NCBI RefSeq assembly: GCF_041381155.1
Contig: NC_091134.1
Location: forward strand, 66,750,969-66,814,968
Length of the DNA: 64,000 bases
Direction: 5' to 3'
Origin: Argopecten irradians
Lineage: Eukaryota; Mollusca; Bivalvia; Pectinida; Pectinidae
Below, one piece after another: positions 2,522-64,000 of the stretch; the stretch's first letter is position 1, and each line of letters begins with the position of its first letter. The notes beneath the pieces were generated by a model, which searched no databases, was not told the DNA's origin, and was given only the letters and a program-made list of their open reading frames with translations. Both the position numbers and the translations under genes were made by a program.

Positions 2522-4643
2522 ATGGAAAGTGTACCTGTTGTGGACCTAACGTCGCTGAGATCCAGCCTCTCTACCCTCACACTACAAAGTGATGCCTTGT
2601 CTTGCAGAAAAGCTCTAGCTAAGGTCAGTATATGGAGAGGTGTCCATCATGGAATGAGGGGAGGAAAAAAGAATGTGTTACAATGTATACATGTTTGTCT
2701 TGTCCAGTCATGTCGTAACCATCCTATCTTATCCCACCCTGTCCTGTTCCATCCTGATATATTTGGCCAAAGGAAAGGGCAATTAACTCTTGCAGACTTT
2801 GTGGTATTTATGTCATTAGATGTGTAGCGGATTTTAATTGTAAATAGTGATACAGTTGCCTTCTACCTTCACTCTAGGGGATTTCCCTTTTGCTCAGTCC
2901 ATAGAGCAACTGACCAGTAAGTTAAGGGTCGCAGTTTCCAGCCCGATGGTGGCACACACACTACTCTAACACTGTTACAAACGCACACTTTTGAATCAGA
3001 TCTTTATATTCTATTCTTTTCGAGTAATTTATTAATGAAAATCAAGAGAATACTTTGTAAATTGCTTGACCAATGCAACACAATATAATATCTAATGGAA
3101 GACAATTATATGTTTAAATCTTTACTTTCAGGTTCTTGCTGCAAAAACAAACGGCATGAATTTGACGGATATGGTACCCAAGATATTGAAGCTTTTAGCT
3201 CACCCAGACCTCATAGCAAAGAAGATAGTATATTCTATCTTAACAGAATATGCACATAAACAGCCTGATATTGCATTACTTGCTATCAACACTCTAACTC
3301 AAGAATGTTCTCATGGCAATCCAATGGTTCGTGGCTTAGCTTTGAAAACAGTTTGTTCACTGAACCACGAGAATTTCTTTGAGTTTGGTCAAAGTGCTGT
3401 TATTTCTGCCTTGAGGGATAGCAGTGCATATGTACGGAGGGTAGCGGTGAACTGCTGTGGGAAGCTTCATTATAGATCCCCAAACATTTGTCAGGAGAGT
3501 GGCCTAACAGACAAACTCTACCACATCATACGGGACCCTGACCCCATCGTTGCTGTCAACGCCATCATGACGTTAGAGGAAATTCTCAAAGAAGAAGGAG
3601 GACTGGTTGTAAATAAAAACATAGCACATTATCTTTTGAACAAGCTTGAGAGCCTGACTCCATGGGGACAAATATACACGATGAACATCTTAGTTAAATA
3701 TACACCAAAGTCTGAAGATGAAATGTTTGACATTCTGAATATGCTAGATAAATACCTGACTCATAATAGCTGTAGTGTGTCCCTTGCTTGTTTGAAGTTG
3801 TTTAGTCACCTTATCAAAGACTTTCCCCATTTAAAGCCAGAGGTGTTGAAGAAAAGTCTCACAGGTATTTGCTCTGTTTTAACATCAGGAAACCATGAAC
3901 TTATATATTGTGTTATTGAAGTTTTGGAGGAGTTCATGGAGAAAGCCAGTGATATAATTGTCCCTCAGTATAAAAACCTGTTCTGTAAGTACAAAGAGCC
4001 TGCTTATCTTAAACAGAAGAAGATAAACATGTTGCCATCACTTGTGACCAATGATAATGGAAGTGAGATTTTAGATGAGCTCTGCCTTTATACCACCGAC
4101 TCTTCCAAGTCCGTTTCTCTTAGTGCTATCACGGCCATGGGAACAGTAATAATGGTCCAGCCTTCCACAGCGAAGCACTGTTTTACCAAGTTCAGGCATC
4201 TGATAGAGACAGATGTAGGCTACATTCTGTCCAACACCCTCCAAGTCTTACAGCGCATAGACATGCGCCACATTGAGGAATTCACAGAACTTCTAACTCT
4301 CATCACAACCAAATCCGACCTCCTACAAGACGACGCTGGCAGATGTGCCTTCTTGGTCATACTTGGTCGATATGGAGATAGAGTTATGGATAGCACATAT
4401 ATCCTTGAGGATTTCCTGGAAACCTTTGGCGAAAACAACATGATGAGTCCTGTGGTACAGTTACACACGCTGACTACAGCAGTGCAGATGTTTTTCCACC
4501 ACCCAGGGGTCTGTCAGGGCATGCTAGGTGAGGTCCTGGAGGCAGGGGTAGCATCCTCCGACAAAGCCGTACAGGATCAGGCCATATTTTACTATACACT
4601 AATGGCTACTGATGTAAATGCTGCAAAGGCAATCTTAATGTGA
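2522..4643 (+). CDS. AP4B1: AP-4 complex subunit beta-1, short form without ear domain
   Basis: Beta subunit of the AP-4 adaptor coat, which sorts cargo such as ATG9A at the trans-Golgi network. Two coding exons: 2522-2623 (34 codons, donor AAG/GTCAGT) and 3132-4643 (503 codons plus stop, acceptor TTTCAG), phase 0, about 537 residues in total. The ATG at 2522 is chosen because TAG lies in frame at 2513 and the N-terminus aligns with human AP4B1 (RKALAK then VLAA against RNVIQR then VIRY). The armadillo/HEAT trunk is plain: LLAINTLTQECS, NPMVRGLALK, SAYVRRVAVNC, RDPDPIVAVN, LEEILKEEGG, YILEDFLETFGEN. The frame stops directly after the trunk (FYYTLMATDVNAAKAILM). Human AP4B1 has 739 residues, so the hinge and C-terminal ear, which bind tepsin in vertebrates, are absent. 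No ear exon was seen downstream and a polyA signal follows at 4750. A GTAAAT at 4614 is a possible but weak donor. Confidence 0.9.
2872..2960 (+). repeat. tRNA-derived SINE head in AP4B1 intron 1
   Basis: The segment contains TTGCTCAGTCCATAGAGCAA, a tRNA D-arm-like A box with complementary GCTC and GAGC. About 35 nt later comes GGTCGCAGTTTCCAGCCC, a decayed B box (consensus GGTTCGANNCC). Order and spacing fit a tRNA-derived SINE read on the plus strand. It is too degenerate to be a working tRNA gene. Confidence 0.5.
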
Positions 4644-19200: not shown

Positions 19201-22200
19201 TTATCGCGGGTCCACTGTATGTCTTCAGACCCTAGCTGTAGCAATAGAATTTTGATGTATATTCAATGATTTTATGTTATATAAGTGTTCCTGAAACAAT
19301 ACTGCTTTTACTATTTGGTCAGAATAATAAATATCAATTATACATGTTGGTTTGTACTTTGTAATACTAAGATTTTAGTATGTTCATTCCTAAGATAGAG
19401 TATTTTTCTCCCCCACATGAATTCACTACTAAGAAATTTTATGAAAAAAATGACAAATAAGAGAACAGAGGGTACAGGTTTTCTAATGTTTGTGACTTTG
19501 TTTTATCTGTACAGCTGATCATTGACACCAGTAACCATGGAAACAAGGTCAGAGGTCATAATACAGGCCCAGACTTGTTTGCACTTTGTTAACATTTTCT
19601 GCTCAAACAATTATTTACCTAATGATAGTGAATTTTTAGTGTTTATCTCTGACATGTGTTTTGAAATTAACTTTTTTCTTTATTTTGAATACACACATTG
19701 AAGTTGTTTTAATGACTAGAATGTTTGTTTTGATTATAAACTGAATTCTTGGATACGTAGGTAGAAATATAGATGACTGTATATCTTATTGTCACTGTCT
19801 AATTCTAATCTCAGATGTTTAACCTTATAATATTCAGTTTAAATTTGTAACCTATTAAAGTAAAATGAAAATTCAAGGATTTCATAAAAGATAAATAGGA
19901 ATAGAATATCTCTAGAAAGAATTGCAGACTTGTCTGGTGTATAGATCCTGTTGTGCTTCTGATTTTATTGAGCTTCTCTCTTCTTTGATATTTTCGCTAA
20001 GTATTTTGATGTCTTGATTTTTAATTAATAGCTATATGTGTATTTGTTTGTTTCTATAAACTGAAATTATAAAATTGCATTTAAATCTGAACTATGCCCT
20101 GCATTAGAATTATTATTAAGTGGCATATAAAATGCACAAAAGCAATTGATTTAAATGACATATAAATGTATCTGTCCGACTCCATGCAAGAATCTAATCA
20201 TCTAAATTTATATAGTCGCAGCATATCATTAAAGGGCTAAATTAGTAAATATATAAACATTACACAACCATGCTATTTGATTTGTCAAGATACCAAATGG
20301 ATTGATAGGGCAATTATCACAGTTTAATTTTGGGTGTTGAAAGTAAACTGTTACTGTCTCCACATAACACAACTGTATCATTGTTGTGGTTTAGTAGTTT
20401 CTTTTTCTGTCACTCATTATAATTGTTGTACAAGTGAAAATGCTAAGTACTTGTTAGTATTTAATATTAGAAATATTGAAATACCATTTTTAATATTAGA
20501 AATATTGAAATACCAAATGAAAAGATTTTAAACATGTTTAAAACAAAATTGAGATAAAAATAGAATATTTGTTGTTTCTTAAAAGCTTTTAGAAAGCTTT
20601 TAATTTAATATACTCAAGAACAAGATGCTAATGCGTATTAATCTTCAGTGTGTTATTGTCGATATTGCAGATAATCTAGATAGATATAGATACCATTGTA
20701 CTGTTTCAGATATGATTATTTATATACAAATAGAGGGGTTAGGTATATATCAAGCTTGGTACCATTTGGTTTAGAATTTGCAATGGTTGTATGCTTATTT
20801 ATCCTGTTTGGCATGCAATCACCTAATCTTAACTTAATAATCTTAAAAAATTTTACTAATAAATGTTTAATCTGATCTAAGTTATGTCATATCTTCATTA
20901 CAACACAAATAGTTGATCTAATTGTATACCTGTAGAATATTCAGAATTCAGTTACAATAAGATTAGTTGTTGTTTGTTCTGAATTCAGAACTGTACCCAG
21001 TACATGATTTGTTGTTCCCTGTTCAGAATTTACCCAATACATGTTTTTCAGGACTAGCATTATTATATGTTTATTTAATTTATTCCATATATATATGTGT
21101 ATGTGTAATTATTTTATCACTCTCGCTCTTATTACCCCCAGAAAATTACATTCCTTTATTTGTCATGTTTTGACTCTGAAACAATGTCCCATCAGTTGTT
21201 TACTTTGATCCAATAGGTTGTCTACCTTGACATTTTCACTAGAATATTCTGCCTTGATAGTGTTTCAGATTGAATTGTCTTCTTTGATACTTGTTAATGA
21301 CCTCCTTTTAGTTGTCCATTCACCTGCCTTAATGTTATCTCTTTTAATGTCTTATCACAAACATTGTCTTTCCTGTTCAATGATTTGAATGGTTTGGATA
21401 TCATATTCCTGCCTTTTAAGATCATTGATAATTTTGTTAATTGTTATTATTATCTGTTTCAGCTGCACATTGACAGTCATGACCCAACTTCTCCTGTCAG
21501 TAAGGAAGTGGACTTTTTTGATGAACACACAGATTCCCCCGATCCATCATTTGCGCCTTCACCGATCAGTGACAATGCCAAACTCTTTGCCACAACAGCT
21601 CCCCAGCCCATTAAGAATGGCAACTTAAACAAGGATATAGGTATACATTGAAAAAAGGATATAGGTATACGTTGAGAAACAAGGATATAGGTATACAATG
21701 AGAAACAAGGATATAGGTATATACATTGAAAAAAGGATTTATAGGTATATACATTGAGAAAAGGATATAGGTATAAATTGAGGAAAGGATATAGGTATAC
21801 AATGAGAAACAAGGATATAGGTATACAATGAGAAACAAGGAAATAGCTATAGGTATACAATGAGAAACAAGGATATAGGTATACATTGAGAAACAAGGAT
21901 ACTAATTATAGGTATACATTGAAAGACAAGGATATAAGTATACATTGAGACAGACCATCTAGTTGAATGTATTGCACAATTTATTTTATTTCATAAATTT
22001 TATTCCCTTAAATAATGATAATTTCTACATGGTTACAATAAAAGGCCATGGTGTCCATTATAATTATATTTATGTATCAGAAATAAGAAACATAAAGGGA
22101 TAGACTGTACTTGTACTTTAAGTTTTACAAAATTTAATGTAAAATACATTACACATTCTGAATTGTGGTCTACCTGATTTTTTTTTCAGACCCTTCAGAA

Positions 22201-25200
22201 GGCCCCAGTGTGGAAGCTGCTTTGAGCATGTCCCCTACACAGGCAGCAGCTCAGGCAGAGCCAAGGAAATCTATTATAGGTGCAAAGAAGCCTGCAGGGG
22301 CTCGCAAAGGGGTATGTGTATATGGCTTTCCTGTCTTCAGATTAATTGGGTTATTTTTCATGATGTTTGAAGTATAGACAATTTTATACTTCATTTATAA
22401 TTTTAGGTTAGGTTCAATTACAATATCTGTAGTATTCTGGTTATTGAAATAGATGCCTCTTTTTAGGTCATCTGACCGAAGGTCAGGATGACCTATTGTC
22501 ATCGTGTTTTGTCCGTCGTCGTGCGCCGTGCGCAGTCGGCCGTGCGCCGTGCGTTGTGCGTAAGACTATTTATACAAAAGCCTACTCCTCCTTAACCCTT
22601 GAGCGGATTACATCCATATTTGGTGTGAAACATCATTGGGGAAGGACAATCATATTTTATATAAATGAGCCTGGTCCAACCCCTAGGGGCTGAGGGGTGG
22701 AGCCTCCAAAAGTGCAAATTTTCTTAATTTTAGCTTTAAAATCCTACTCCTCCTTCGTTCTTGAATGGATTTCATCCATATTTGGTGTGAAACATCATCG
22801 GGGAAGGACAATCATATTTTATATAAATGAGCTTGGTCCGACCCCTAGGGGCTGAGGGGTGGGGCCCCAAAAGGGCAAATTTTCTTAATTTAAGCTTTAA
22901 AATCCTACTCCTCTTTCACCATTGGATGGATTTCATCGATATTTGGTGTGAAACATCATCAGGGAAGGACAATCATATTTTTTTATAAATGAGCTTGGTC
23001 CGACCAAAGGCAATGATATTTAAGATAATTTTCAACTTTAGTTCATTGTAACTGTGTGTTTTGGTGCTATAGTGAGATGTTAGATTAACTTACGACAAAG
23101 ACTGTCTGTCTATTTACAGAAGAAAGGCATGGGAGCCCAGAGAGTGAAGGCCAACTTCAACGAGATAGAGAGTCGGGCTCAGCAGCTGGACCAGGAGAGA
23201 GAAACACTAGCAGCCAACCAGGCGATGGCAGAGGCTCGTACAAAAGAGGAGCAGGAAAAACAGATGTAAGTGGTTTGTAGATGAGTGGTAAGATGATATT
23301 AGTGGATTTCACAGTGATTTTCAAGGCTTATATGAAAGATACAGGAAGAAAAAGATGTAAGGCATTTGTAATTAAAGAGTGCATAGAAATATTGTGATAT
23401 TTCCCAATGATGATCATCTGATATGCCTGGAGAATGTTGCAATGTGATAGGAAGGTTTATTTACCTGTAACTAATACTACCTGAGAGCTTGCTTGAGGAA
23501 AATGTTACATCTGAGGGTAAATATGCATTCACATGTCACTGCCACCAGCAGGGCTTTTTCTCACTGGTTTGGGAATTGGGCCTGTGGCTTTGAATTTGAG
23601 GGAAAAAGTGCAACAAAACCAGGATTTGGGGAAAATTATGAAATATGAATTAAAGCATAACAAATAAGATTTTTTCTTTCCAGTGTACTTTATGTACTTT
23701 TCTGGAGCCAATTCACAAATATTTAAAGTCTTAACCAACCAAAATCATGCAATATTTTTGGATAGTTTTCAAGAAATTTTGATTTTGGGAAATTTAAGGC
23801 TTGATTTGGGGAAAATTTTGAGGTTTTGCCATGGGGAATGGGGCCGAATTCGGCCCAAAATCATGTTGAAAAAAACCTCTGACCAGGGACATAATTGTTT
23901 ATTATACCAAAAACAATTACTTGATGATGAGTAAAATTTGCTTTTAATGCTTTATCCGTCATTGTTGTACTAGCAGAAGGGGGGATAACTCCCTGTGAAT
24001 GATGGGCAATGATGTTCTCTGATCACAGAGAATGAATATTATTAAACATAAGTTACTCTAATAAGTACACAGGGTAGGCTTACCCCTTACTTTAATGAGT
24101 ACACAGGGTAGACTTACCCCATACTTTAATTAGTACACAGGGTAGACTTACCCCATACTTTAGTTAGCACACAGGGTAGACTTACCCCATACTTTAATTA
24201 GTACACAGGGTAGACTTACATCATACTTTAATTAGTACACAGGGTAGACTTACCCCATACTTTAATTAGCACACAGGGTAGACTTACCCCATACTTTAAT
24301 TAGTACACAGGGTAGACTTACCCCATACTTTAATTAGTACACAGGGTAGACTTACCCCATACTTTAATTAGTACACAGGGTAGCATACTTTAATTAGCAC
24401 ACAGGAGAGACTTACCCCATACTTTAATTAGTACACAGGAGGTAGACTTACCCCATACTTTAATTAGTACACAGGGTAGACTTACCCCATACTTTAATTA
24501 GTACACAGGGTAGACTTACCCCATACTTTAATTAGTACACAGGGTAGACTTACCCCATACTTTAATTAGTACACAGGGTAGACTTACCCCATACTTTAAT
24601 TAGTACATAGGGTAGACTTACCCCATACTTTAATTAGTACACAGGGTAGACTTACCCCATACTTTAATTAGTACACAGGGTAGCATACTTTAATTAGTAC
24701 ACAGGGTAGACTTTCCCCATACTTTAATTAGCACACAGGGTAGACTTACCCCATACTTTAATTAGTACACAGGGTAGACTTACCCCATACTTTAATTAGT
24801 ACACAGGGTAGACTTTCCCCATACTTTAATTAGCACACAGGGTAGACTTACCCCATACTTTAATTAGTACACAGGGTAGACTTACCCCATACTTTAATTA
24901 GTACACAGGGTAGACTTACCCCATACTTTAATTAGTACACAGGGTAGACTTACCCCATACTTTAATTAGTACCACGGGTAGACTTATCTCATACTTTAAT
25001 TAGTACACAGGGTAGACTTACCCCATACTTTAATTAGTACACAGGGTAGACTTACCCCATACTTTAATTAGCACACAGGGTAGACTTACCCCATACTTTA
25101 ATTAGCACACAGGGTAGACTTACCCCATACTTTAATTAGTACACAGGGTAGACTTATTACAGGTAGACCCCATACTTTAATTAGTACACAGGGTAGACTT

Positions 25201-28200
25201 ACCCCATACTTTAATTAGTACACAGGGTAGACTTACCCCATACTTTAATTAGTACACAGGGTAGACTTATCTCATACTTTAATTAGTACACAGGGTAGAC
25301 TTACCCCATACTTTAATTAGTACACAGGGTAGACTTACCCCATACTTTAATTAGTACACATACAGGGTAGACTTACCTCATACTTTAATTAGCACACAGG
25401 GTAGACTTCCCATACTTTAATTAGTATACTGTACACAGGGTAGACTTACCCCATACTTTAATCAGTACACAGGGTAGACTTACCCCATACTTTAATTAGT
25501 ACACAGGGTAGACTTACCCCATACTTTAATTAGTACACAGGGTAGACTTACCCCATACTTTAATTAGTACACAGGGTAGACTTACCCCATACTTTAATTA
25601 GTACACAGGGTAGACTTACCCCATACTTTAATTAGTACACAGGGTAGACTTACCCCATACTTTAATTAGTACACAGGGTAGACTTACCCCATACTTTAAT
25701 TAGTACACAGGGTAGACTTACCCCATACTTTAATTAGTACACAGGGTAGACTTAACCCATACTTTAATTAGTACACAGGGTAGACTTACCCCATACTTTA
25801 ATTAGTACACAGGGTAGACTTACCCCATACTTTAATTAGTACACAGGGTAGACTTACCCCATACTTTAATTAGTACACTGGGTAGACTTACCCCATACTT
25901 TAATTAGTACACAGGGTAGACTTACCCCATACTTTAATTAGTACACAGGGTAGACTTACCCCATACTTTAATTAGTACACAGGGTAGACTTACCCCATAC
26001 TTTAATAAGTACACAGGGTAGACTTACCCCATACTTTAATTAGTACACAGGGTAGACTTACCCCATACTTTAATTAGTACACAGGGTAGACTTACCCCAT
26101 ACTTTAATTAGTACACTGGGTAGACTTACCCCATACTTTAATTAGTACACTGGGTAGACTTATCTCATACTTTAATTAGTACACAGGGTAGACTTACCCC
26201 ATACTTTAATTAGTACACAGGGTAGACTTACCCCATACTTTAATTAGTACACAGGGTAGACTTACCCCATACTTTAATTAGTACACTGGGTAGACTTACC
26301 CCATACTTTAATTAGTACACTGGGTAGACTTATCTCATACTTTAATTAGTACACTGGGTAGACTTATCTCATACTTTAATCAGTACACAGGATAGACTTA
26401 CCCCATACTTTAATTAGTACACAGGGTAGACTTACCCCATACTTTAATAAGTACACAGGGTAGACTTACCCCATACTTTAATCAGTACACAGGGTAGACT
26501 TACCCCATACTTTAATTAGTACACAGGGTAGACTTACCCCATACTTTAATTAGTACACTGGGTAGACTTACCCCATACTTTAATTAGTACACACTGGGTA
26601 GACTTATCTCATACTTTAATTAGTACACAGGGTAGACTTACCCCATACTTTAATTAGTACACAGGGTAGACTTATCTCATACTTTAATTAGCACACAGGG
26701 TAGACTTACCCCATACTTTAATTAGTACACAGGGTAGACTTACCCCATACTTTAATTAGTACACAGGGTAGACTTACCCCATACTTTAATTAGTACACAG
26801 GGTAGACTTACCCCATACTTTAATTAGTACACAGGGTAGACTTACCCCATACTTTAATTAGTACACAGGGTAGACTTACCCCATACTTTAATTAGTACAC
26901 AGGGTAACTTACCCCATACTTTAATTAGTACACAGGGTAGACTTACCCCATACTTTAATTAGTACACAGGGTAGACTTACCCCATACTTTAATTAGTACA
27001 CAGGGTAGACTTACCCATACTTTAATTAGTACACATAGACTTACCATACTTTAATTAGCACACAGGGTAGACTTACCCCATACTTTAATTAGTACACAGG
27101 GTAGACTTACCCCATATTTTAATCAGTACACAGGATAGACTTACCCCATACTTTAATTAGTACACAGGGTAGACTTACCCCATACTTTAATTAGTACACA
27201 GGGTAGACTTACCCCATACTTTAATTAGTACACAGGGTAGACTTATCTCATACTTTAATTAGTACACAGGGTAGACTTACCCCATACTTTAATTAGTACA
27301 CAGGGTAGACTTACCCCATACTTTAATTAGTACACAGGGTAGACTTACCCCATACTTTAATTAGTACACTGGGTAGACTTATCTCATACTTTAATTAGTA
27401 CACAGGGTAGACTTACCCCATACTTTAATTAGTACACAGGGTAGACTTACCCCATATTTTAATCAGTACACAGGATAGACTTACCTCATACTTTAATTAG
27501 TACACAGGGTAGACTTACCCCATACTTTAATCAGTACACAGGGTAGACTTACCCCATACTTTAATTAGTACACAGGGTAGACTTACCCCATACTTTATTT
27601 AGTACACAGGGTAGACTTACCCCATACTTTAATTAGTACACAGGGTAGACTTACCCCATACTTTAATTAGTACACAGGGTAGACTTACCCCATACTTTAA
27701 TTAGTACACAGGGTAGACTTACCCCATACTTTAATTAGTACACATGGTAGACTTACCCCATACTTTAATTAGCATACAGGGTAGACTTACCCCATACTTT
27801 AATTAGTACACAGGGTAGACTTACCCCATACTTTAATTAGTACACAGGGTAGACTTACCCCATACTTTAATTAGTACACAGGGTAGACTTACCCCATACT
27901 TTAATTAGTACACAGGGTAGACTTACCCCATACTTTAATTAGTACACAGGGTAGACTTACCCCATACTTTAATTAGTACACAGGGTAGCATACTTTAATT
28001 AGTACACAGGGTAGACTTTCCCCATACTTTAATTAGCACACAGGGTAGACTTGCCCCATACTTTAATTAGTACACAGGGTAGCATACTTTAATTAGTACA
28101 CAGGGTAGACTTTCCCCATACTTTAATTAGCACACAGGGTAGACTTACCCCATACTTTAATTAGTACACAGGGTAGACTTACCCCATACTTTAATTAGTA

Positions 28201-31200
28201 CACAGGGTAGACTTACCCCATACTTTAATTAGTACACAGGGTAGACTTACCCCATACTTTAATTAGTACACAGGGTAGACTTACCCCATACTTTAATTAG
28301 TACACAGGGTAGACTTACCCCATACTTTAATTAGTACACAGGGTAGACTTACCCCATACTTTAATTAGTACACAGGGTAGACTTACCCCATACTTTAATT
28401 AGTACACAGGGTAGACTTACCCCATACTTTAATTAGTACACAGGGTAGACTTACCCCATACTTTAATTAGTACACAGGGTAGACTTACCCCATACTTTAA
28501 TTAGTACACAGGGTAGACTTACCCCATACTTTAATTAGTACACAGGGTAGACTTACCCCATACTTTAATTAGTACACAGGGTAGACTTACCCCATACTTT
28601 AATTAGTACACAGGGTAGACTTACCCCATACTTTAATTAGCACACAGGGTAGACTTACCCCATACTTTAATTAGTACACAGGGTAGAATTACCCCATACT
28701 TTAATCAGTACACAGGGTAGACTTACCCCATACTTTAATCAGTACACAGGGTAGACTTACCCCATACTTTAATCAGTACACAGGGTAGACTTACAATTGT
28801 TTTGTGATGCAGGGCTTCAATGAGATTAGCCTACAAAGATATGAGTCTACAAAGGAAGAAAGAAGAGGATAAATTAAAGGCAACAGACCCTAAGAAAGCT
28901 GCACAGTATGAACGACTAGGCATGGGCTTCGTAGGAAACAAGTAAGGACTTGTGGCTTAGTTTTCATGCTAATATAAAGAACAATGTTTTGTTCAACAGG
29001 AATCAGTATCTTTTTTTTTCAGTTCCAATAATTGATTGGTGAGATATAGCAAGCTGACATTTACAAAAAAAATTTAGATTCAGATATAAATGATTAATTT
29101 GTCCCTGTAGGTATACTCTGATGTGTATCTGTGTTTTAATTCACCCTTCTGCCTTTATTTCCACAGACTCGTGAACTTCTTGTTTCCTATTTTTCAGAGA
29201 ATTCAGTCATTCAGCCATATCAGATATGCAGACTTTTGAACAGTCTCAGCCAAATAAGACAAACAATTCAAACGGTGCTGACCGCTATGAAAGAAAATCA
29301 GCCCGATCCAAAAATTTCTTTGATGACGAGCTTGATTCTATGGGATTTTCATCATCAGCTTCAAAGTAAGACTAAATCTGAGAGAACATGTTTCATTCAT
29401 TAAATCTATTTGATTTTATGTGATCAACCTAATGAAATAGAAGGAAATGTTCTTGGTTGGTGTAAGTTATGTTACTGACTTAAGAGTTGATGAATAAAAG
29501 TTTGTATTGATGCTGGCTGATTACAAATATGACAGTTTGTTTGGTGAGAAGGTTATATTGAGTTTAAATATTTTACAGATATGACAGTCCATTCGGTGAG
29601 GAGAAGGATTCTTTCAGCAGCTGGGGCAGTAGTAACAAGTCTGGTAGCTGGGATATAGATCGATTTGAATCTAAACAACAAAGTTTTTCTGAATCCTTGT
29701 CCTCCTCACGGGATGATGACAGGTAGGGCAATGTCCCTGTAATGTGCCTGTATATCATTACAGATCTGTCTCTCGTATAGCATCTTTGTGTTAACTTTCT
29801 TCCATCATATAGCATCTGTTTAATTTTAATTCAACATCCATGAGATCTTCACTTTTTTTTCATAGTCACTAATTTGTACATCATAATGTCTACTTTCTGT
29901 TTAAACCAAACAAAAGGAGATTTGAGTTTTTTTGGTTTTTTTTTTGTCTTTTGTATAAGAATAATTCAACAAATAAAATAAAGTCTGCTCTGTTATGATT
30001 GTCATGTGTAAATTCTTTTACAAAGCGGAGAGAAGGAGGAGGATGAGATACAGGGTGATGTAGAGGAGGGGTAAATGTCATCCATGTCAAAGGTCAGGGT
30101 CAAAGGTCAAGAGCTTGCAACCCTTAACTCTATCATATATTTCTGTGATGATGTTTTTGTCATTTTCAACTTTTAAAGAAAGAACTTGTGTCTGAAATAA
30201 TTGAAGAACATATTGGTTTTATACCTAAATAAAGTCCTGCTGCTGTGACCTTTGACCCTGGTTGTTCACACCTGTAAGACACAGCCAATAAAACACTTGC
30301 TTTATCTGGTTCTGGCATGCATACTGGTACATGTAGTATAATGGTATCACTAGGTCTTTATTAGACATATTTGATTTTAAAATGTTTGTCTTTTTTTAAA
30401 CAAGTCAATTGTGATTTCACACAAGATTTTAATACATACAAGCATTATCATCATCAAAACCTTTAAGAACTTCCCGGTTAGTTCAAGGACAGGAAGTGCT
30501 CACATCCTGATTAATGGATAATTACAAATTAATATGCATGATATGCCAAATTTCAAATTACAGTAAAAGTGTCAAAACATTGCAGTGTGTGTTGTTCTAA
30601 CTTGTGTAGAATGCACAAAGACCTGCTGTGGGGTATATTGTTGTTAGATATTCCTACAGGAATACATCAGTAGATTAACTGGAGGATTCACTACTCCATG
30701 TTGGTTGGTTCTTTTTTAGAAAAAGTATTGGACTTTCTTGTACACTGCTATAAATGTAGACGTTTATAAACTTGTTATGGTGGATGACTTTATATAACTT
30801 TTTAAGTCCTTCCTGTTTTCTCCTTTCTCACATGTTAAAAATTACTGATTGAGCTGTTAAAATTTAACTTTCAGGAGTTTTATATCTAACTTGATAACCT
30901 CCATTTAGTGATCATCAAAATATTATGGTTGTGAGGAACATTTGTGTAGCAGGTAGTAATAAGCCTGATTACTCGATCACCTATATCTCACTGAGCTGGG
31001 CTATATCAAAGATGACAATGACCAGACAATTGAGGAGCTGTTACCTTACATTACAGATGTTCACTTGAACATTTTAAATCAGAAACGAAAAGAACATATT
31101 TGAGAAAATTCAGTTTGACTCGGCTTTTACTGTGCCAAGTAATGTTATTTATTTCATTTTTATTTTGAAATCCAGCAATTTCACGTAAAAATCCCTGTGT

Positions 31201-34200
31201 TAGAGAGTTTTTAGGTCACCTGAGACAAAGTCTCTAGTGACTTATTCTAATCACCTTTTGTCCATCGACGTGCGTCGTATGTCCGTAAACAATTTATATT
31301 TTCGACTTTTTCTCCAAAAATGCTGAAGCAATGTCAATGAAATTTTGCACAAACCTTCTAAGGCACAAGGCCCATCAAAATTGTGAATGATATGGTCCCC
31401 AGCCCCTCTTCTGAGTTCACAGGTTTGATGGAAGCAAATACTCTTCATAGATTAAAAGGTTAAATTTATAAGATCACTGACCAAAAAACTTCAAGGGCCA
31501 GCATATTAGTGTTTATATGTCTTTGTTTCATCCTATACGAACTCAGGTGACTGTTAAGACCCATGGGTCTCTTGTTTCTTGTAGTGCTTAAATACTTTGC
31601 AATCTGATTTTGTCTTTGTGAGTTTTACAACCCTGCCATAGGAGGTGATTGGGATAATGGCCTCACTTTCACACTTTACACCTGTAAAGTTGATAAAGAT
31701 GGCTTCCCGTGTATTTTTGCTTTATTTTGATTCTCAGCAAACATTATTTTTTTCTGTATTTTCTCTCAGTTGTATAACGTACGAGGTTTGAGTTGATACC
31801 ACAAATAACTGCTAGTATAAATAATTATCTACTAATTAACAGTATTAATTATGGATTTGAAATAATTCTAAGAAAGTTATACTTCAAGTTCCTTGATCGG
31901 TTTGGTATTAAGGCAAAGCTCACAACTTAGTTATACAACCCTAGAAAAATACAACCAAAAAAATTGAGCACAAATTTGTGGGAACCCATCTTAAATATGA
32001 TTTTACTGATAAATACCACTTAAAATGTTTGATAAACATGGAAAAAATATAAGCATCAGATCATAACCAGTAGATAATGTTTCAAATGCTATCTCTAGTT
32101 TTGAATCGGCTAGTCATGTTACATATATAACCGAAATCTTTTGGTTTCATTCCTTTGTAAGATTAGATATTAAAACCTCACTTAGCCTAGAGAGTTTTGT
32201 ATGTGTCTGAATTCTAAAAACTTGTAGCCATGTATTGGTCAGACAAAATTCATATTTGATTATACTTCTGAAATTAGAAATGAAAATATAAATGATATTT
32301 AAGTCTTTGGATATACTGTAATACTAAATTGTAAATGAACTAGATATATGTCGGCCCTGACTTTGATCACACATGACCATTAAGTATTGGTGTGTGTGAT
32401 AGGTCACTCGAGTTGTTGTCTGACTACCAGAGTTTGTGTTACAGACCCAGCCGAAGTCGGAAGGCCTACGACTACAACACTACTACTGGTACCTCGGATG
32501 AGGCTCAGAAAAAATTCGCTGGTGCCAAATCTATATCGTCAGACCAGTTTTTTGGTAACAAGGAAATGGATGTAAGTTTGTTTTGTAAAGAATCCTAAAT
32601 CTTGTGGTTCCTTCAATAAGATGAAGGAAATAACTAAAATGTCCATGATCTGGTATTTTGATTACGTTCTGATTGGTGCCCAGGGCACCCAACATTGTTC
32701 ACCACTACTGATTCAGAAATTAAAAATAGATAGAAAAAAAATCTATTAAATTAGCTATCTATGTAATTGATTATGTAGACTGCCAACTATCTAAAGATCT
32801 GAAATTTTATCTGTTGTCCTTGTTTGTAGTTTGCTATGAAACAGAATATGTCAAGATTTGAGGGGAGCTCAAGTATATCGAGTGCAGATTTCTATGGGGA
32901 CTCATCAAGTAAACGGTCACAGAACTATGGCAACGCTGGACCCGACTTACAGGACATCAAGGATGGAGTGAGGCAGGGAGTGACAAAAGTGGCTGGTAAA
33001 CTCTCTACACTAGCCAATGGTGTGATGAACTCTCTACAGGTAAATAGGCCCTAAGGGGACATTGGTTACAGGTTGATACAGCACCAGTTCTTATTTGTAA
33101 TTGTAGTTTATAATAGATACAAACAGCTACATAAGGCCTGCATTGTCATGATAATGAAGGTGTCATGTTTTCAAATGTATAGAGGTCATGGTTCACAATC
33201 AATATACACTGGGTTACATAGTTCATAGGAATCACAATTTTACATTCTCAAAAGTTCATTAGGTTAGTCGTCATAGAATACATATATCTTGGTCTGAGAG
33301 CACTTTTGTGCTGATCATCTGTTCACAGTTCATTGGTATCCATATTACAAATTATAGGATTTGAAAGTTTGGAATAATGTATTCACTTAGTTACAAGTTT
33401 TAAACCACACGTTTTAAATGTCAACATGTTCTGTAAATAGAACATTGAAAGGTTAATGGGTTAAAGTTCATCTGATGAGAAGTTTGGAGTGTGTTCAGTA
33501 AGTTCACAGAATCAAATGTTATCATAGTCTGCACTTCTGTCACACTAACTTTAGAAGCATGGTACTACTGATGTATAAAAGTCATATTGCAATATAAGGC
33601 ATGTTTATGTATTGCACTGCTATAGTGGAAGAGTGGTGTAAAAGTGACGTCCTGTAAATCATTGTGTTGATAGTTCCATTGACTGTGTTAAATGGTGTCT
33701 ACGTTACAGAGAAAATGATGCCTCCTAGAACCATAGGTAACACGTTTACCTATCATTGATGGTGGTCGGGGGTGTCTATGGGTAGTAGTAGCTTTGGGGT
33801 CCATTTCTCAGTGCTGTTGAGTCTTTCCCTGCGTGATATGTTTGCCTTATCTCTACCCTTGTCACACACTTGTTACAGTTTATATTTTCAAGCTTATCTC
33901 CCCTCATCTACATCAATTCAAATTTTTCATTGACCTTCTTTAGTTAAATACTTTAAAAGAATTTTTTCTTGTTGATTTTTGATGTTGTGAAACAGCATTC
34001 TTAGGTACGCTCGGCGAGCCTGTGCACATCAGAACAATGAAACCTCTACGCGATGAAAATTAAAAGTTGTTTTGTTCATTTCACTTAATACTTGATGTTA
34101 TGAAAAATAAAACCCCAATATACACCATAGATGGAGTGTTTTAAGTGTTCCGTTGGGACTCTATGATATTGGTATGACTCCGAGATAGTAGTCTCCCGAA

Positions 34201-37200: not shown

Positions 37201-40200
37201 TATACTGTATAGTATATATTCCTTAAACGAAATAATAGGAACTGTTTTGATATAGGTAACATATATTGAGCATAATGTAAATAAATAATTCATTTAGATT
37301 ATCAAGTTTGATAGTAAATAATTTCTTAACTTTTGCTTAAAAGTTACAAAGGATGTGGAGTGTGTTATATCAAGTGGAAGATTATTCCAAGATACAGCTC
37401 CAGAGTAGCTGAATGACTTCCTCATTGTCTCTGATTGTAACTTAGGTAAAAGGAGTTTATTTTCTGTAGCTGATCTGAGTTTGTACAAGCAAGAATTTTG
37501 ACAAGTTTCAATTAAAGTACATATATAATCCGGTGTCATATTATGCAGTACTTTATAAACCAAAATTACAGTATGATATTTTAATCTGAGTTCAAAAGGG
37601 AGTGCTTAAGCTTCTTTAAAAAGGGCCAAACTGTCAGAAAGTATTGGTTTATCTAGCATTATTCTAAGAGCTTTCTTTTGTAGTTTTGTAATATGATTTA
37701 TTTGTTGTTTTGTCAAACCATTACCCCAGACTATAGCGGCATAATCTAAAATTGGTAAAATGTAGGAATTGTAGTAAATTTTCCTAGCTTCTCTTGGTAG
37801 ATAGCTTTTCATTTTTCGTAGTAATGCAATTGCTATTGAGAGCTTAGATGCTACCTTTTTTACTTGTTCTGACCAGTTTAAAAATTTATCTATGTAAATA
37901 CCTAAGACTTTCTGACAATTTGAATGATTGATATGTGTATCATTTACTACTAGATGGATATCCATTCCTGCTATTTTCCTCTTACTCCCAATAAGCATAC
38001 TATTTGTTTTTTGTAAATTTATGTTCATATTATTAAATTGGCACCACCTAAAAATGTTTTTAATATCTTCTTGAAGGCTTTGTTCAATTTCAGGTAATGT
38101 ACTGCCTTTTGTGTGTATAGTCGTATCATCAGCATACATATCAACATTACATTGTTTTACATACATTTGTAAATCATTAATATAAATAAGAAACATAAGT
38201 GGACCAAGAATTGAGCCCTGAGGTACACCTGTTTTTATCAGTTTAGGAGAGGATGACATACCATTTGATTGTATAGATTGAAATCTGCCAGATAGATAAG
38301 ATGTAAACCACTGCAGACTTGACATTGATACATTTAAAAGTTTAAGTTTATGAAGAAGTATTTTGTGATCAACAAGGTCAAAAGCTTTTTGTAGATCTAT
38401 AAAAAGCGTTCCTATCATTTGACTGTTGTCTATACCTTTAAGCCAAGTGTCCAGCAGATTAATGAGAGCTGTTTGACACGAGTGCTGAGATCGAAAGCCT
38501 GACTGAGAGCTATGCAGTATGTTATATTTGGTCAGATATTTGTAAAGATGCTTAGTTACATGTTTTTCAAATATTTTTGAAAGAGTTGGTAAAATTGAAA
38601 TTGGTCTATAATTATTTGGATTTTCCTTTTCTTTGCCTTTATGTATTGTAACTACTCTAGCTTCCTTTAATATATTAGGGAAGATATTTTTATTCACACT
38701 AATATTAATTATATGTGAAATATGTGATGATATTAAGTCTTTACATAGTTTAAGAATTTTAGGACCTATTCCATCATTCCCCACTGCTTTAGTAGCATCA
38801 AGCCTAGTTATGTAATCATAAGTTTCATCCACTTTAATTAATGGAATACAGAAAGCTGGGCTATTACCTACTTTTTTGTTTACCTGTTTGTGAAAAAGGG
38901 CATGATCACTTTCATTGAATGGCTTTTTCTTAATATTGTCAGAGATATTCACAAAATGATTATTAAGATAATTTAGGATGTTTTGTTTACCAGTAATATG
39001 CTCATTTTCACAGAAGATTTCTGTTGGTAATTGATTTTTGTTTGCAGTTTTCGTCATGCTACTTAAATGATTCCATAAAGTGTTAAACTTTATTTTTAAT
39101 TGCGTTCTTAAAGAGTTCACTTTTTGACTTCAATATTAAGGTGTTTGTTTTGTTTCTCCATAATCGGTAGTTAACCATATCTTTATTTTTGTGATAATTG
39201 TCTCTGAGATTCCTTGCATTTGATATCTCGGTATTATACCAGCTAGGCTGTTTGGGTATTTTCACTCTTTTAGATTTGATTGGTGCATGCTTGTTTAATG
39301 TATCTAAAATTGAAGAGGTTAGGTGAGATAAAGCCTCATTTGTGTCTTCTATTAGGATAATTTCATTGATTGTTGATGATGATAGGTCTGATAAGAAATT
39401 ATGTTCATTGAATTCTTTAAAACACCTGTATGATATTGTTTTGTGTGATGAAGATGCTTGTTTAGACGATTTGGTTTTTACTGTGATACACACTGGATAA
39501 TGGTCACTTATTGCTATGCTAGGCACTATGACATCTGTAGTGATATCAGGATTACTGCAGTAAATATGATCGATCAGAGTACTAGTATTTTCAGTGACTC
39601 GAGTTGGTTGGTTCACGAGTTGAGTAAGGTTATGTTCTGATATCACATTTTCCCATTTTATATTTGGAGTATTGGCTGTATTTAGCAGTATTTAAAATCT
39701 CCCATGATAAGTACTTCAAGATCTTCACTTGTTGCTTTATCCATCATATGATCAAATACATCAATCCAGGACACATTACTGCTAGGAGGTCTATAAAGGT
39801 GGCAAATCAGAACACTTTTACTATGGCTAGGATTAATTTGTAGCCAAATACATTCTATTGCTTCTTCTTCTAGATCACTTCTTCTGGTATATGGTATACT
39901 TTCTTTAATGTAAGTCACAATACCTCCACCTACTCGGTTTGTTCTATCTCGTCTCTCCATATTAAATCCTTCAATGTTTATTAAGGTGTCATTGACAATA
40001 TCTGATAGGAAAGTTTCACATAAACCAAGCACATGAATAGAGTGATTCTGTTGTAAAAGAAAAGTTATTTCATCAATTTTTGGTAACAAATGTCTAATAT
40101 TCCAACTACCTATGTGAAGGCCTTTACTCAGAAAATTTAAAGTATTTAAATTCACGTTGATGTTGGGATCAGTATATTTACTATTAGGTTGACTAATTAA

Positions 40201-42472: not shown

Positions 42473-44123
42473 CGACTGTGGTCACTAGCCCAGGACTGTC
42501 GTCACTAGCCCAGGACTGTCGTCACTAGCCCAGGACTGTCGTCACTAGCCCTGGACTGCCATCGCTAGCCCAGGACTGTCGTCACTAGCCCAGGACTGTC
42601 GTCACTAGCCCAGGACTGTCGTCACTAGCCCAGGACTGTCGTCACTAGCCCAGGACTGTCATCCCTAGTCCAGGACTGTCGTCACTAGCCCTGGACTGCC
42701 ATCGCTAGCCCAGGACTGTCGTCACTAGCCCTGGACTGCCATCGCTAGCCCAGGACTGTCGTCACAAGCCCTGGACTGCCATCGCTAGTCCAGGACTGTC
42801 ATCACTAGCCCAGGACTGTGGTCACTAGCCCAGGACTGTGGTCACTAGCCCAGGACTGTGGTCACTAGCCCAGGACTGTGGTCACTACTCCAGGACTGTC
42901 GTCACTAGCCCTGGACTGTGGTCACTAGTCCAGGACTGTGGTCACTAGCCCTGGACTGTGGTGACTAGTCTAGGACTGTCGTCACTAGCCCTTGACTGTG
43001 GTCACTAGCCCAGGACTGTGGTCACTAGCCCAGGACTGTGGTCACTAGCCCTGGACTGTGGTCACTAGTCTAGGACTGTCGTCACTAGCCCTGGACTGCC
43101 ATCGCTAGCCCAGGACTGTCGTCACTAGCCCAGGACTGTCGTCACTAGCCCTGGACTGCCATCGCTAGCCCAGGACTGTCATCACTAGCCCAGGACTGTC
43201 ATCACTAGTCCAGGACTGTCGTCACTAGCCCTGGACTGTGGTCAATAGCTCAGGACTGTGGTCACTAGCCCTGGACTGTGGTCACTAGTCTAGGACTGTG
43301 GTCACTAGCCCTGGACTGTGGTCACTAGTCCAGGACTGTGGTCACTAGCCCAGGACTGTGGTCACTAGCCCTGGACTGTGGTCACTAGCCCAGGATTGTG
43401 GTCACTAGCCCGAGACTAACTAGCCCAGGACTGTCGTCACTAGTCTAGGACTGTGGTCACTAGCCCTGGACTGAGGTCACTAGTCTAGGACTGTCGTCAC
43501 TAGCCCTGGACTGCCATCTCTAGCCCAGGACTGTCGTCACTAGCCCTGGACTATGGTCACTAGTCCAGGACTGTCGTCACTAGCCCTGGACTGTGGTCAC
43601 TAGTCCAGGACTGTGGTCACTAGCCCTGGACTGTGGTCACTAGTCTAGGACTGTCGTCACTAGCCCTGGACTGTGGTCACTAGTCTAGGACTGTCGTCAC
43701 TAGCCCTGGACTGTGGTCACTAGCCCTGGACTGTGGTCACTAGCCCTGGACTGTCGTCACTAGCCCTGGACTGTCGTCACTAGCCCAGGACTGTCGTCAC
43801 TAGCCCTGGACTGTGGTCACTAGCCCTGGACTGTCGTCACTAGCACTGGACTGTGGTCACTAGTCTAGGACTGTCGTCACTAGCCCTGTACTATCGTTGC
43901 AAGTCCTGGACTATCATCGCTAGCTTTGTACTATCGTTGCAAGTCCTGGACTGTCATCACTAGCCCTCGACTGTCGTCGCTAGCCCCGGACTCACTGTTA
44001 TTGGTAGCCCTGGACTGTCATTACTAGCCATGGACTTTCGTCACTAGCCCTCGACTGTCGTCGCTAGCCCTGCACTCACTGTCATTGGTAGCCCTGGACT
44101 GTCGTTGCTATCTCTGTACTGTC
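42473..44123 (+). repeat. 20-bp minisatellite array, ~82 units
   Basis: Two main unit types alternate irregularly: CAGGACTGTCGTCACTAGCC and CTGGACTGTGGTCACTAGTC, with a third, CTGGACTGCCATCGCTAGCC. The TAGTC variants make GGACT and AGTCC palindromic within one unit. The right end (from about 43880) is more degenerate, with single-base and length changes, as expected at the old margin of an array. Confidence 0.95.
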
Positions 44124-54700: not shown

Positions 54701-55088
54701 CTCCTGCAGCAGTCAGTGTCGTAAACATACTTGTGATGGTAATCAAGCAGTTAATAGAAATTATTTCACATGACACGAGCCAAACACAATCCTGATTCGG
54801 GCAAAAAAATTGAATCATCTTTATTCAAAGAAAATGTTGAACTGTTTTCTAGCTCACACTGATAAACTCCCTCGCACCACAACAGATTAGTAACCCTTTA
54901 CAAAGAGATAGCAGTATAAATGTGTATCATTATGAAGTCGAACTGTTCCATCTTTATTATTAAGACATGCCTCAATACTTTGTTGGAATAGTCATTAATT
55001 TATGTTCTACCGTGCGATTCATGTAAAACCTTCTTATAAAGTTCTGTGTTTTAAAAGAAGAATATTGATGTTTGATTTAGGTAATTGT
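51781..55088. other. Intergenic or intronic, no secure gene
   Basis: AT-rich. A possible exon ends at 52639 before GTAAGT (see findings). An imperfect hairpin with 17-bp arms (ACCCAGAAATACAGAAT) lies at 53889-53980. No other element was recognised in these 3.3 kb. Confidence 0.4.
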
Positions 55089-58000
55089 ATTCTGGACATG
55101 GCATGAACTACATTGGGACTGTATCACTATTCTGGACATGGCATGAACTACTTTGGGACTGTATCACTATTCTGGACATGTCGTGAACTACATTGGGACT
55201 ATATCACTATTCTGGACATGGAATGAACTACAGTGGGACTGTATCACTATTCTGGACATAGTGTGAACTACATTGGGACTGTATCACTATTCTGGACATA
55301 GTGTGAACCTACATTGGAACTGTATCACTATTCTGGACATGGTGTGAACTACATTGGGACTGTATCACTATTCTGGACATGGTGTGAACTACATTGGGAC
55401 TGTATCACTATTCTGGACATGGCATGAACTACATCAGGACTGTATCACTATTCTGGACATGGTGTGAACTACGTTGGGACTGTATCACTATTCTGGACAT
55501 GGTGTGAACTACATTGGGACTGTATCACTATTCTGGACATGGCATGAACACTATTCTGGACATGGCATGAACTACTTTGGGACTGTATCACTATTCTGGA
55601 CATGGTGTGAACTACATTGGGACTGTATCACTATTCTGGACATAGTGTGAACTACATTGGGACTGTATCACTATTCTGGACATGGTGTGAACTACATTGG
55701 AACTGTATCACTATTCTGGACATGGTGTGAACTACATTGGGACTGTATCACTATTCTGGACATGGCATGAACTACATCAGGACTGTATCACTATTCTGGA
55801 CATGGCATGAACTACATCAGGACTGTATCACTATTCTGGACATGGTGTGAACTACTGTATCACTATTCTGGACATGGTGTGAACTACGTTGGGACTGTAT
55901 CACTATTCTGGACATGGTGTGAACTACATTGGGACTGTATCACTATTCTGGACATGGTGTGAACTACATTGGGACTGTATCACTATTCTGGACATGGTGT
56001 GAACTACATTGGGACTGTATCACTATTCTGGACATGGTGTGAACTACATTGGGACTGTATCACTATTCTGGACATGGCATGAACTACATTGGGACTGTAT
56101 CACTATTCTGGACATGGTGTGAACTATGTTGGGACTGTATCACTATTCTGGACATGGCATGAACTACATCAGGACTGTATCACTATTCTGGACATGGTGT
56201 GAACTATGTTGGGACTGTATCACTATTCTAGACATGGTGTGAACTACATTGGAACTGTATCACTATTCTGGACATGGTGTGAACTACGTTGGAACTGTAT
56301 CAATATTCTGGACATGGCATGAACTACATTGGGACTGTATCACTATTCTGGACATGGTGTGAACTACATTGGGACTGTATCACTATTCTGGACATGGTGT
56401 GAACTACGTTGGAACTGTATCAATATTCTGGACATGGCATGAACTACATTGGGACTGTATCACTATTCTGGACATGGTGTGAACTACATTGGGACTGTAT
56501 CACTATTCTGGACATGGCATGAACTACATCAGGATTGTATCACTATTCTGGACATGGTGTGAACTATGTTGGGACTGTATCACTATTCTAGACATGGTGT
56601 GAACTACATTGGAACTGTATCACTATTCTGGACATGGTGTGAACTACGTTGGAACTGTATCAATATTCTGGACATGGCATGAACTACATTGGGACTGTAT
56701 CACTATTCTGGACATGGTTTGAACTACATTGGGACTGTATCACTATTCTGGACATGGTGTGAACTACGTTGGGACTGTATCACTATTCTGGACATGGTGT
56801 GAACTACATTGGGACTGTATCACTATTCTGGACATGGTGTGAACTACATTGGGACTGTATCACTATTCTGGACATGGCATGAACTACATCAGGACTGTAT
56901 CACTATTCTGGACATGGTGTGAACTACGTTGGGACTGTATCACTATTCTGGACATGGTGTGAACTACATTGGGACTGTATCACTATTCTGGACATGGCAT
57001 GAACTACTTTGGGACTGTATCACTATTCTGGACATGGTGTGAACTACATTGGGACTGTATCACTATTCTGGACATGGTGTGAACTACATTGGGACTGTAT
57101 CACTATTCTGGACATGGTGTGAACTACATTGGGACTGTATCACTATTCTGGACATGGTGTGAACTACATTGGGACTGTATCACTATTCTGGACATGGCAT
57201 GAACTACATTGGGACTGTATCACTATTCTGGACATGGTGTGAACTACATTGGGACTGTATCACTATTCTGGACATGGTGTGAACTACATTGGGACTGTAT
57301 CACTATTCTGGACATGGTGTGAACTACATTGGGACTGTATCACTATTCTGGACATGGCATGAACTACATTGGGACTGTATCACTATTCTGGACATGTGTG
57401 AACTACATTGGGACTGTATCACTATTCTGGACATGGTGTGAACTACGTTGGGACTGTATCACTATTCTGGACATGGTGTGAACTACATTGGGACTGTATC
57501 ACTATTCTGGACATGGCATGAACTACATTGGGACTGTATCACTATTCTGGACATGGTGTGAACTACATTGGGACTGTATCACTATTCTGGACATGGTGTG
57601 AACTACATTGGGACTGTATCACTATTCTGGACATGGTGTGAACTACGTTGGAACTGTATCACTATTCTGGACATGGTGTGAACTACATTGGGACTGTATC
57701 ACTATTCTGGACATGGTGTGAACTACATTGGGACTGTATCACTATTCTGGACATGGCATGAACTACATTGGAACTGTATCACTATTCTGGACATGGCATG
57801 AACTACATTGGGACTGTATCACTATTCTGGACATGGTGTGAACTACATTGGGACTGTATCACTATTCTGGACATGGTGTGAACTACGTTGGGACTGTATC
57901 ACTATTCTGGACATGGTGTGAACTACATTGGGACTGTATCACTATTCTGGACATGGTGTGAACTACATTGGGACTGTATCACTATTCTGGACATGGTGTG

Positions 58001-62870: not shown

Positions 62871-64000
62871 TATGCTCTATGTTGAAGTGTATTTCAGTTT
62901 AACACTTTATAGACAGTTGTAGTTATGTTAGGTCTAACACTTTGTTGAAGTGTATTTCAGTTTAACACTTTATAAACAGTTGTAGTTATGTTAGGTTTAA
63001 CTCTATGTTGAAGTGTATTTCAGTTTAACACTTTATAAACAGTTGTAGTTATGTTAGGTCTAACTTTATCTTTCAGTTTAACACTTTATAAACAGTTGTA
63101 GTTATGTTAGGTTTAACTCTATGTTGAAGTGTATTCCAGTTTAACACTTTATAAACAGTTGTTGTTAGGTTAGGTTTAACTCTATGTTGAAGTGTATTCC
63201 AGTTTAACACTTTATAAACAGTTGTAGTTATGTTAGGTTTAACTCTATCTTTCAGTTTAACACTTTATAAACAGTTGTAGTTAGGTTAGGTTTAACTCTA
63301 TGTTGAAGTGTATTTCAGTTTAACACTTTATAAACAGTTGTGGTTATGTTAGGTTTAACTCTATGTTGAAGTGTATTTCAGTTTAACACTTTATAAACAG
63401 TTGTAGTTATGTTAGGTCTAACTCTATCTTTCAGTTTAACACTTTATAAACAGTTGTAGTTATGTTAGATTTAACTATATCTTTCAGTTTAACACTTTAT
63501 AAACAGTTGTAGTTATGTTAGGTTTAACTCTATGTTGAAGTGTATTTCAGTTTAACACTTTATAAACAGTTGTAGTTATGCTAGGTTTAACTCTATCTTT
63601 CAGTTTAACACTTTATAAACAGTTGTTGTTAGGTTAGGTTTAACTCTATGTTGAAGTGTATTTCAGTTTAACACTTTATAAACAGTTGTAGTTAGGTTAG
63701 GTTTAACTCTATGTTGAAGTGTATTTCAGTTTAACACTTTATAAACAGTTGTAGTTATGCTAGGTTTAACTCTATCTTTCAGTTTAACACTTTATAAACA
63801 GTTGTTGTAAGGTTAGGTTTAACTCTATGTTGAAGTGTATTTCAGTTTAACACTTTATAAACAGTTGTAGTTAGGTTAGGTTTAACTCTATGTTGAAGTG
63901 CATTTCAGTTTAACACTTTATAAACAGTTGTAGTTATGTTAGGTTTAACTCTATCTTTCAGTTTAACACTTTATAAACAGTTGTAGTTAGGTTAGGTTTA
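62871..64000 (+). repeat. 63/53-bp tandem array reaching the right edge
   Basis: Nineteen copies of CAGTTTAACACTTTATAAAC lie in two unit lengths. The long unit (63 bp) has TCTATGTTGAAGTGTATTTC. The short unit (53 bp) lacks ten bases and reads TCTATCTTTC. From left to right the order is L L L S L L S L L S S L S L L S L L S, mostly L-L-S triplets of about 179 bp. The array continues beyond the window. Confidence 0.95.

Follow-up and report, generated by a model that had tools for sequence, protein, structure and literature searches.

Tandem copies of the exon 4/intron 4 boundary in the ARFGAP2 gene of the scallop Argopecten irradians

Exon 4 of the ARFGAP2 gene in the scallop Argopecten irradians runs into a ladder of near-identical 5′ splice sites, which raises the question of which of these donors is used in splicing and whether the other copies have any role of their own. 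A first-pass annotation had proposed that the ladder may serve as a splicing buffer or as a length-variable switch. In this study, the ladder was analyzed within a stretch of 64,000 bases, in the following called the window, and by searches of the assembly (846 Mb, 1508 contigs). By its structure, the ladder is a member of the mirage kind of repeat, which is known but little noticed. We consider it probable that a segment of the exon-intron boundary was copied into intron 4, that copy 1 is the productive donor, and that copies 2 to 12 act as passive decoys.

ARFGAP2 gene model and anatomy of the array

The gene was modeled from reading frames and from tblastn matches of a human C-terminus sequence. 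The model comprises 12 exons on the + strand between 12800 and 33039, with 555 codons without a stop and with all phases consistent; the actual last exon is probably located further downstream. Exons 1–6 match ARFGAP2 5nzs_P (E=1.2e-81) and the model contains an ArfGap domain (E=2.1e-26), while a Pfam search with the peptides of exon 6 and exon 8 gave no family. Exon 4 (21463–21640, + strand, phase 1) is delimited by the acceptor TATCTGTTTCAG and the donor TAG|GTATAC, and ends with ...NGNLNKDI and the first base of the next codon; its phase fits exon 5, and its assignment agrees with the alignment to 5nzs_P. Exon 5 (22190–22311, + strand, phase 1) follows the acceptor TTTTTTTTTCAG. Intron 4 thereby ends at the acceptor 22189, which is unrelated to the array.

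The array is a minisatellite on the + strand at 21627–21950 with a period of 26, 12.0 copies, 82% matches and a score of 351 according to TRF, and direct repeats were seen at the same positions. In 200 dinucleotide shuffles of the region 21400–22200, the top TRF score was 78. Unit 1 begins at 21627 and straddles the exon 4/intron 4 boundary, as it consists of the last 14 bases of exon 4 followed by the donor at 21641 (donor 1; TAG|GTATAC, 21641–21646, + strand). For the alignment, units were cut by hand, and insertion columns were omitted from the column counts. The resulting 26-bp consensus unit is AAACAAGGATATAG|GTATACATTGAG. The donor G positions are 21641, 21665, 21691, 21717, 21745, 21771, 21795, 21821, 21853, 21879, 21912, and 21938, with spacings of 24, 26, 26, 28, 26, 24, 26, 32, 26, 33, and 26 bases along the array. 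AG|GT is present in 11 of the 12 units (ATAG|GTATA) and AA|GT in the last one (ATAA|GTATA). Likewise, ATAGGTATA is kept in 11 of 12 units, whereas unit 12 reads ATAAGTATA; only this unit has a changed donor core, and the divergence of unit 1 is not unusual in the alignment. All 11 occurrences of ATAGGTATA in the window lie inside the array, compared with 1.23 expected (mean of 100 shuffles, none of which attained 11; highest count 6).

The first-pass annotation had placed about twelve tandem copies of the ARFGAP2 exon 4 donor here, eleven of them with GGTATA. The gene and exon are borne out by the open 12-exon model and the 5nzs_P match, the copies by TRF, the shuffles and the gene model, and the ladder itself by the 12 donors located. 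Its span of 21631–21952 starts four bases too late.

Among the 12 donors of the ARFGAP2 model, only that of exon 4 is in contact with the array, and in the TRF list of the window no second array overlaps any exon edge of the model. Intron 6 is mostly filled by a 34-bp array with approximately 140 copies (24054–28794), which stops 18 bases 5′ of exon 7 and whose units near the end carry ACACAG|GG; given this short distance, the branch point may lie in array sequence. Two further ARFGAP2 intron regions, 22470–23005 (with 162-bp tandem units according to TRF) and 31210–31570, are probable interspersed repeats of the GGTCATCTGACC and GGTCACCTGAGAC types, which we take to be common in bivalves.

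Donor strength and predicted products

In silico splicing of each of the 12 array donors to exon 5 gave an open product from donor 1 alone. Past this donor, the frame reads GGT ATA CAT TGA, i.e., the TGA at 21649–21651 (+ strand) follows 8 bases after the first base of the donor. All 11 downstream donors share this TGA, because it sits directly past donor 1, whatever the unit length, and none of them gives a stop-free product. The phase of exon 5 is kept by 4 of the 12 donors (21641, 21665, 21821, and 21938). Use of the donor at 21665 would be translated into ...KDIGIH followed by the stop, as foreseen in the first-pass annotation, which had expected short KDIGIH-type additions ending in a stop; the cause is the TGA at 21649–21651 and not, as stated there, that units are not multiples of three.

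Donor strength was scored with a position weight matrix (PWM) built from the 11 other donors of ARFGAP2, a number of sites so small that the scores only rank. Donor 1 scored 2.85, and of the 12 donors in the gene only that of exon 1 scored lower; the leave-one-out scores of the other 11 ranged from 2.07 to 10.07. Within the array, copies 4 (21717) and 5 (21745), both GTATAT (21717–21750, + strand), exceeded donor 1 with 4.41 each, copy 6 scored 2.20, the degenerate copy 12 (TAA|GTATAC, 21938–21943, + strand) scored 0.64, and the other eight including donor 1 scored 2.85. Among the 29 other GTs of exon 4 and intron 4, six have a score above that of donor 1 (22139, 21496, 21717, 21745, 21500, and 21969), and on the + strand of the window 21% of all 4033 GTs score at least as high. 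In-phase, stop-free alternatives were found only upstream of donor 1, at 21476, 21500, and 21569, with a positive score only at 21500. The choice of donor 1 rests on phase and open frame, as scores alone do not select it. Since donor 1 is weak, leakage to other sites may not be small.

Boundary arrays at other exons and in other species

A muscle-myosin exon of this genome (L014) shares 105 of 105 residues with the PDB chains 1dfk_A and 1dfl_A; these chains and the next in rank stem from scallops and a squid. The large contigs among the matches are C1 to C16, and n=16 applies to Argopecten. Searches for the GFP and FMRFamide families, with which amphioxus and mollusc were to be distinguished, gave no match (no positive control), and PDB matches of two other myosin exons were not informative about the organism. 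Tandem arrays are abundant in this genome. With a period of 10–200 and at least 3 copies, they cover 15036 of 64000 bases of the window; the corresponding figures are 9266 of 30000 for six sampled stretches of 5 kb and 6981 of 97512 for 30 myosin-exon loci. A laxer threshold (period 8–300, at least 2.5 copies) gave 8100 of 97512 bases (8.3%) at the myosin loci and 10938 of 96729 bases (11.3%) at 30 kinesin loci. These 60 exon loci, the top 30 of 82 myosin-head matches and the top 30 of 130 kinesin matches, were inspected for arrays at exon edges. An array overlaps the protein match in five of them (L029, L031, L039, L059, and L076) and lies within 60 bases of the match in three more (L023, 9 bases; L019, 46; L063, 50). 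Six of these eight were read (all but L019 and L059), by which one clear (L039) and one probable (L023) boundary array were recognized among the 60.

The clear case is an acceptor-side mirage at a myosin XV-like exon (CNPYFV; best PDB match myosin-XV) of a gene on the minus strand. Approximately 42 copies, counted by reading, extend from L039 1657–3186 into L079 1–1046 (C5:36365997 to approximately 36368545). The 60-bp unit combines a pyrimidine tract and CTTAG with the initial 19 bases of the exon, one or two of them changed; L039 holds 25 exact copies of the acceptor. The unit length is divisible by three, and in the frame of the exon the unit is open, save for nine stops in one out-of-frame stretch (part of the array was translated). 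As it is open in the copies nearest the exon, use of their acceptors would add residues in multiples of 20. L023 1662–1865, at a myosin exon, is probably a donor mirage, with the junction GAAAAA|GTGAGTAGAT and, after it, five copies of AAAA|GTAAGTAGATT that have diverged to varying degrees. The arrays in L029 (13 bp × 3.2, 74%) and L031 (88 bp × 2.8, 77%) begin at or near the exon end and were not counted, being short or simple; that in L076 is internal to the exon and that in L063 does not reach it. Given the array background of 8 to 11%, there is no visible excess of boundary arrays at exon edges, as judged by eye in a small sample in which match edges are not always exon edges.

For comparison with published repeats, the features taken to define mirages were a minisatellite-like array, a terminal unit equal to the authentic boundary, AG/GT in the units, undisturbed splicing, length instability, and homogenized central units. 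The mirages of amphioxus are described as minisatellites of a tandemly copied intron-exon boundary in Adh3, troponin C, the globins BflGb6 and BflGb9, and PGBD5; they are found on either the 5′ or the 3′ side, AG/GT is present in many units, unit lengths range from 10–72 bp (Adh3) up to 150–160 bp, and regular splicing is reportedly undisturbed (PMC3087553, PMC3902484). The ARFGAP2 array likewise consists of tandem boundary copies with AG/GT in its units. It differs in belonging to another phylum, in its format of 26 bp × 12 at a donor, and in the in-frame stop right after donor 1.

A close human parallel is the VNTR in intron 18 of ABCA7, which has a C-rich 25-bp unit whose first GT is the exon 18 donor, with alleles from approximately 12 up to approximately 427 units. 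Use of its second donor retains one unit and leads to a premature stop, an isoform that was observed; VNTR length correlates with skipping of exon 19, given as the main effect, and inversely with expression, while unit retention is unchanged by length (PMC5954066). In ARFGAP2, too, the first GT of the array is the exon donor (21641) and retention of one unit is predicted to give a stop, but the unit also includes 14 exon bases. The human CBS VNTR c.1444_1467+7(16_21), likewise a close match, has a 31-bp unit in 16–21 copies (PMC2630376). By its name, this unit combines 24 coding and 7 intronic bases and hence also an exon-intron boundary, whereas unit length and copy number differ from the 26 bp × 12 in ARFGAP2. 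The minisatellite of IFI6 (6-16) reportedly supplies several donor sites in one transcript, according to the title of Turri 1995. Both ladders offer several donor sites, yet none of the 11 downstream ARFGAP2 donors is stop-free, while in human IFI6 two downstream units are described as donors of transcripts that encode protein isoforms (PMC4526556). The Rogers model of intron gain through tandem duplication of AGGT segments (PMC4974935, PMC3443670) agrees with the AG|GT in every ARFGAP2 unit but the last; here, however, intron 4 has its own acceptor and a new intron was not seen. Another effect of repeat length on splicing is described for dog LHX3 (PMC3223203), and tandem repeats at human exon-intron boundaries are dealt with in PMC2812944. 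A boundary array of a mollusc or scallop was not found in the literature, judged by titles and abstract openings; mention inside papers is possible, and subscription literature was mostly outside the scope.

Readings of the ladder

The reading that we favor is that of a mirage-type minisatellite. A segment over the exon 4/intron 4 boundary (14 exon and approximately 12 intron bases) would have been copied in head-to-tail orientation into intron 4, with subsequent enlargement of the array through slippage or unequal exchange. Copy 1, which lies at the exon edge and is the sole array donor with an open frame, would do the productive splicing, and the remaining eleven copies would be passive decoys. 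Low-level use of a decoy would yield a transcript with the TGA, and thereby nonsense-mediated decay or a truncated ArfGAP. The array is most likely neutral, with a poison leak that is low at most. This reading is favored because only donor 1 of the 12 is open and the 555-codon frame is open with it, because the exonic portion of the unit falls within a linker with poor alignment to ARFGAP2 5nzs_P and tandem arrays are abundant in the genome, and because a second clear mirage occurs at the myosin XV-like exon and amphioxus mirages reportedly leave splicing undisturbed. In such a linker, a change in the length of exon 4 should be tolerated. The weakness of donor 1 and the unit retention observed for ABCA7 speak against this reading.

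Alternatively, the copies could compete with the weak donor 1 and the number of copies would determine the amount of ARFGAP2 message that is removed by decay. That copies 4 and 5 score higher, that the TGA is common to all 11 downstream donors, and that ABCA7 shows unit retention as well as an inverse correlation of length and expression would be in line with this, although retention there is unchanged by length (PMC5954066). However, the donor core is not the best-conserved part of the unit. The invariant GT is unremarkable, given that 15 columns of the 26-column consensus show no variation among the 12 units; the best-conserved block of nine columns is AAGGATATA (mean 12.0 of 12), and the donor 9-mer has a mean of 11.56, which random sets of nine columns reach in 7.2% of draws. 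Selection on the donor copies was discarded as an explanation, as conservation is not centered on the donor. An RNA fold signal is also absent from the array (z=0.66; 72 of 100 shuffles fold as well), by which hiding of the donors in RNA structure was rejected; Rfam gave 0 matches at gathering score in 20000–24000. Considering also that, judged by eye, arrays were not visibly enriched at exon edges in the 60-locus sample, we regard such competition as unlikely. A regulatory role for the donor copies, though possible, finds no support here.

Still less probable is that the main donor is TCA|GTAAGG (21500–21505, + strand, phase 1), which would leave the array wholly intronic. It is in phase and has the higher score (4.02 vs 2.85 for donor 1), and splicing from it would cost 47 codons but create no stop. 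This deletion would remove the DFF-EHT stretch that aligns with ARFGAP2 5nzs_P, however, and exon 4 remains open up to donor 1.

The proposed buffer, in which spare donors would rescue splicing upon mutation of donor 1, would fit the ATAGGTATA retained in 11 of 12 units but is contradicted at the protein level: with the TGA at 21649 in all 11 downstream products, the array cannot buffer splicing and only poison (premature-stop) messages are possible. A working donor would be regained at the exon edge only if DNA slippage removed whole units. This part of the first-pass annotation, for which none of the 11 downstream copies gives an open frame, is very hard to maintain. Equally implausible is that a dispersed repeat family, or a sequence similar by chance, came to lie at the boundary by accident: parts of the array are matched at 67–79% by 36 other genomic places (C13, C8, C2, and C10), but the arrays read among them (L002, L003, and L006, on C13 and C8) have different, 27-bp units, unit 1 is continuous with the coding end of the exon, and the shuffles fail to produce such an array.

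Two further candidates were rejected. A retrocopy carrying a spliced form was dismissed since exons 3–6 matched only their own locus in the assembly (4 matches, best candidates scored), and recursive splicing or micro-exons with a TATAG acceptor were dismissed since the units, by reading, have no pyrimidine tract.

With the ARFGAP2 array, the mirage repeat type of amphioxus, with its human VNTR parallels, is extended to a scallop, which suggests that boundary arrays turn up where the minisatellite load is high. They are natural experiments on the choice of the spliceosome among near-identical donors, and on whether boundary arrays may give rise to new introns or serve as variable decoys in splicing. 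The ARFGAP2 array is especially readable in this respect because a single stop marks each wrong downstream choice. A more far-reaching proposal would be that splice-site mirages of donors and acceptors are widespread in the genome and that the ARFGAP2 copies form a poison-donor ladder, in which the number of copies determines what share of transcripts is lost at their common TGA; we consider this combination unlikely, but if true, heritable array length would tune gene output in a wild animal.

Elsewhere in the window, TRF detected other large minisatellites at 42474–44070 (20 bp × 80), 55088–60594 (40 bp × 134), and 62875–64000 (63 bp × 19). Open frames on the minus strand at 37294–40200 resemble a non-LTR retrotransposon (endonuclease and reverse-transcriptase-like, translations judged by eye). 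Upstream of ARFGAP2, an adaptin N-terminal gene (Pfam PF01602, E=1.8e-65) with one long exon lies at 3096–4643.
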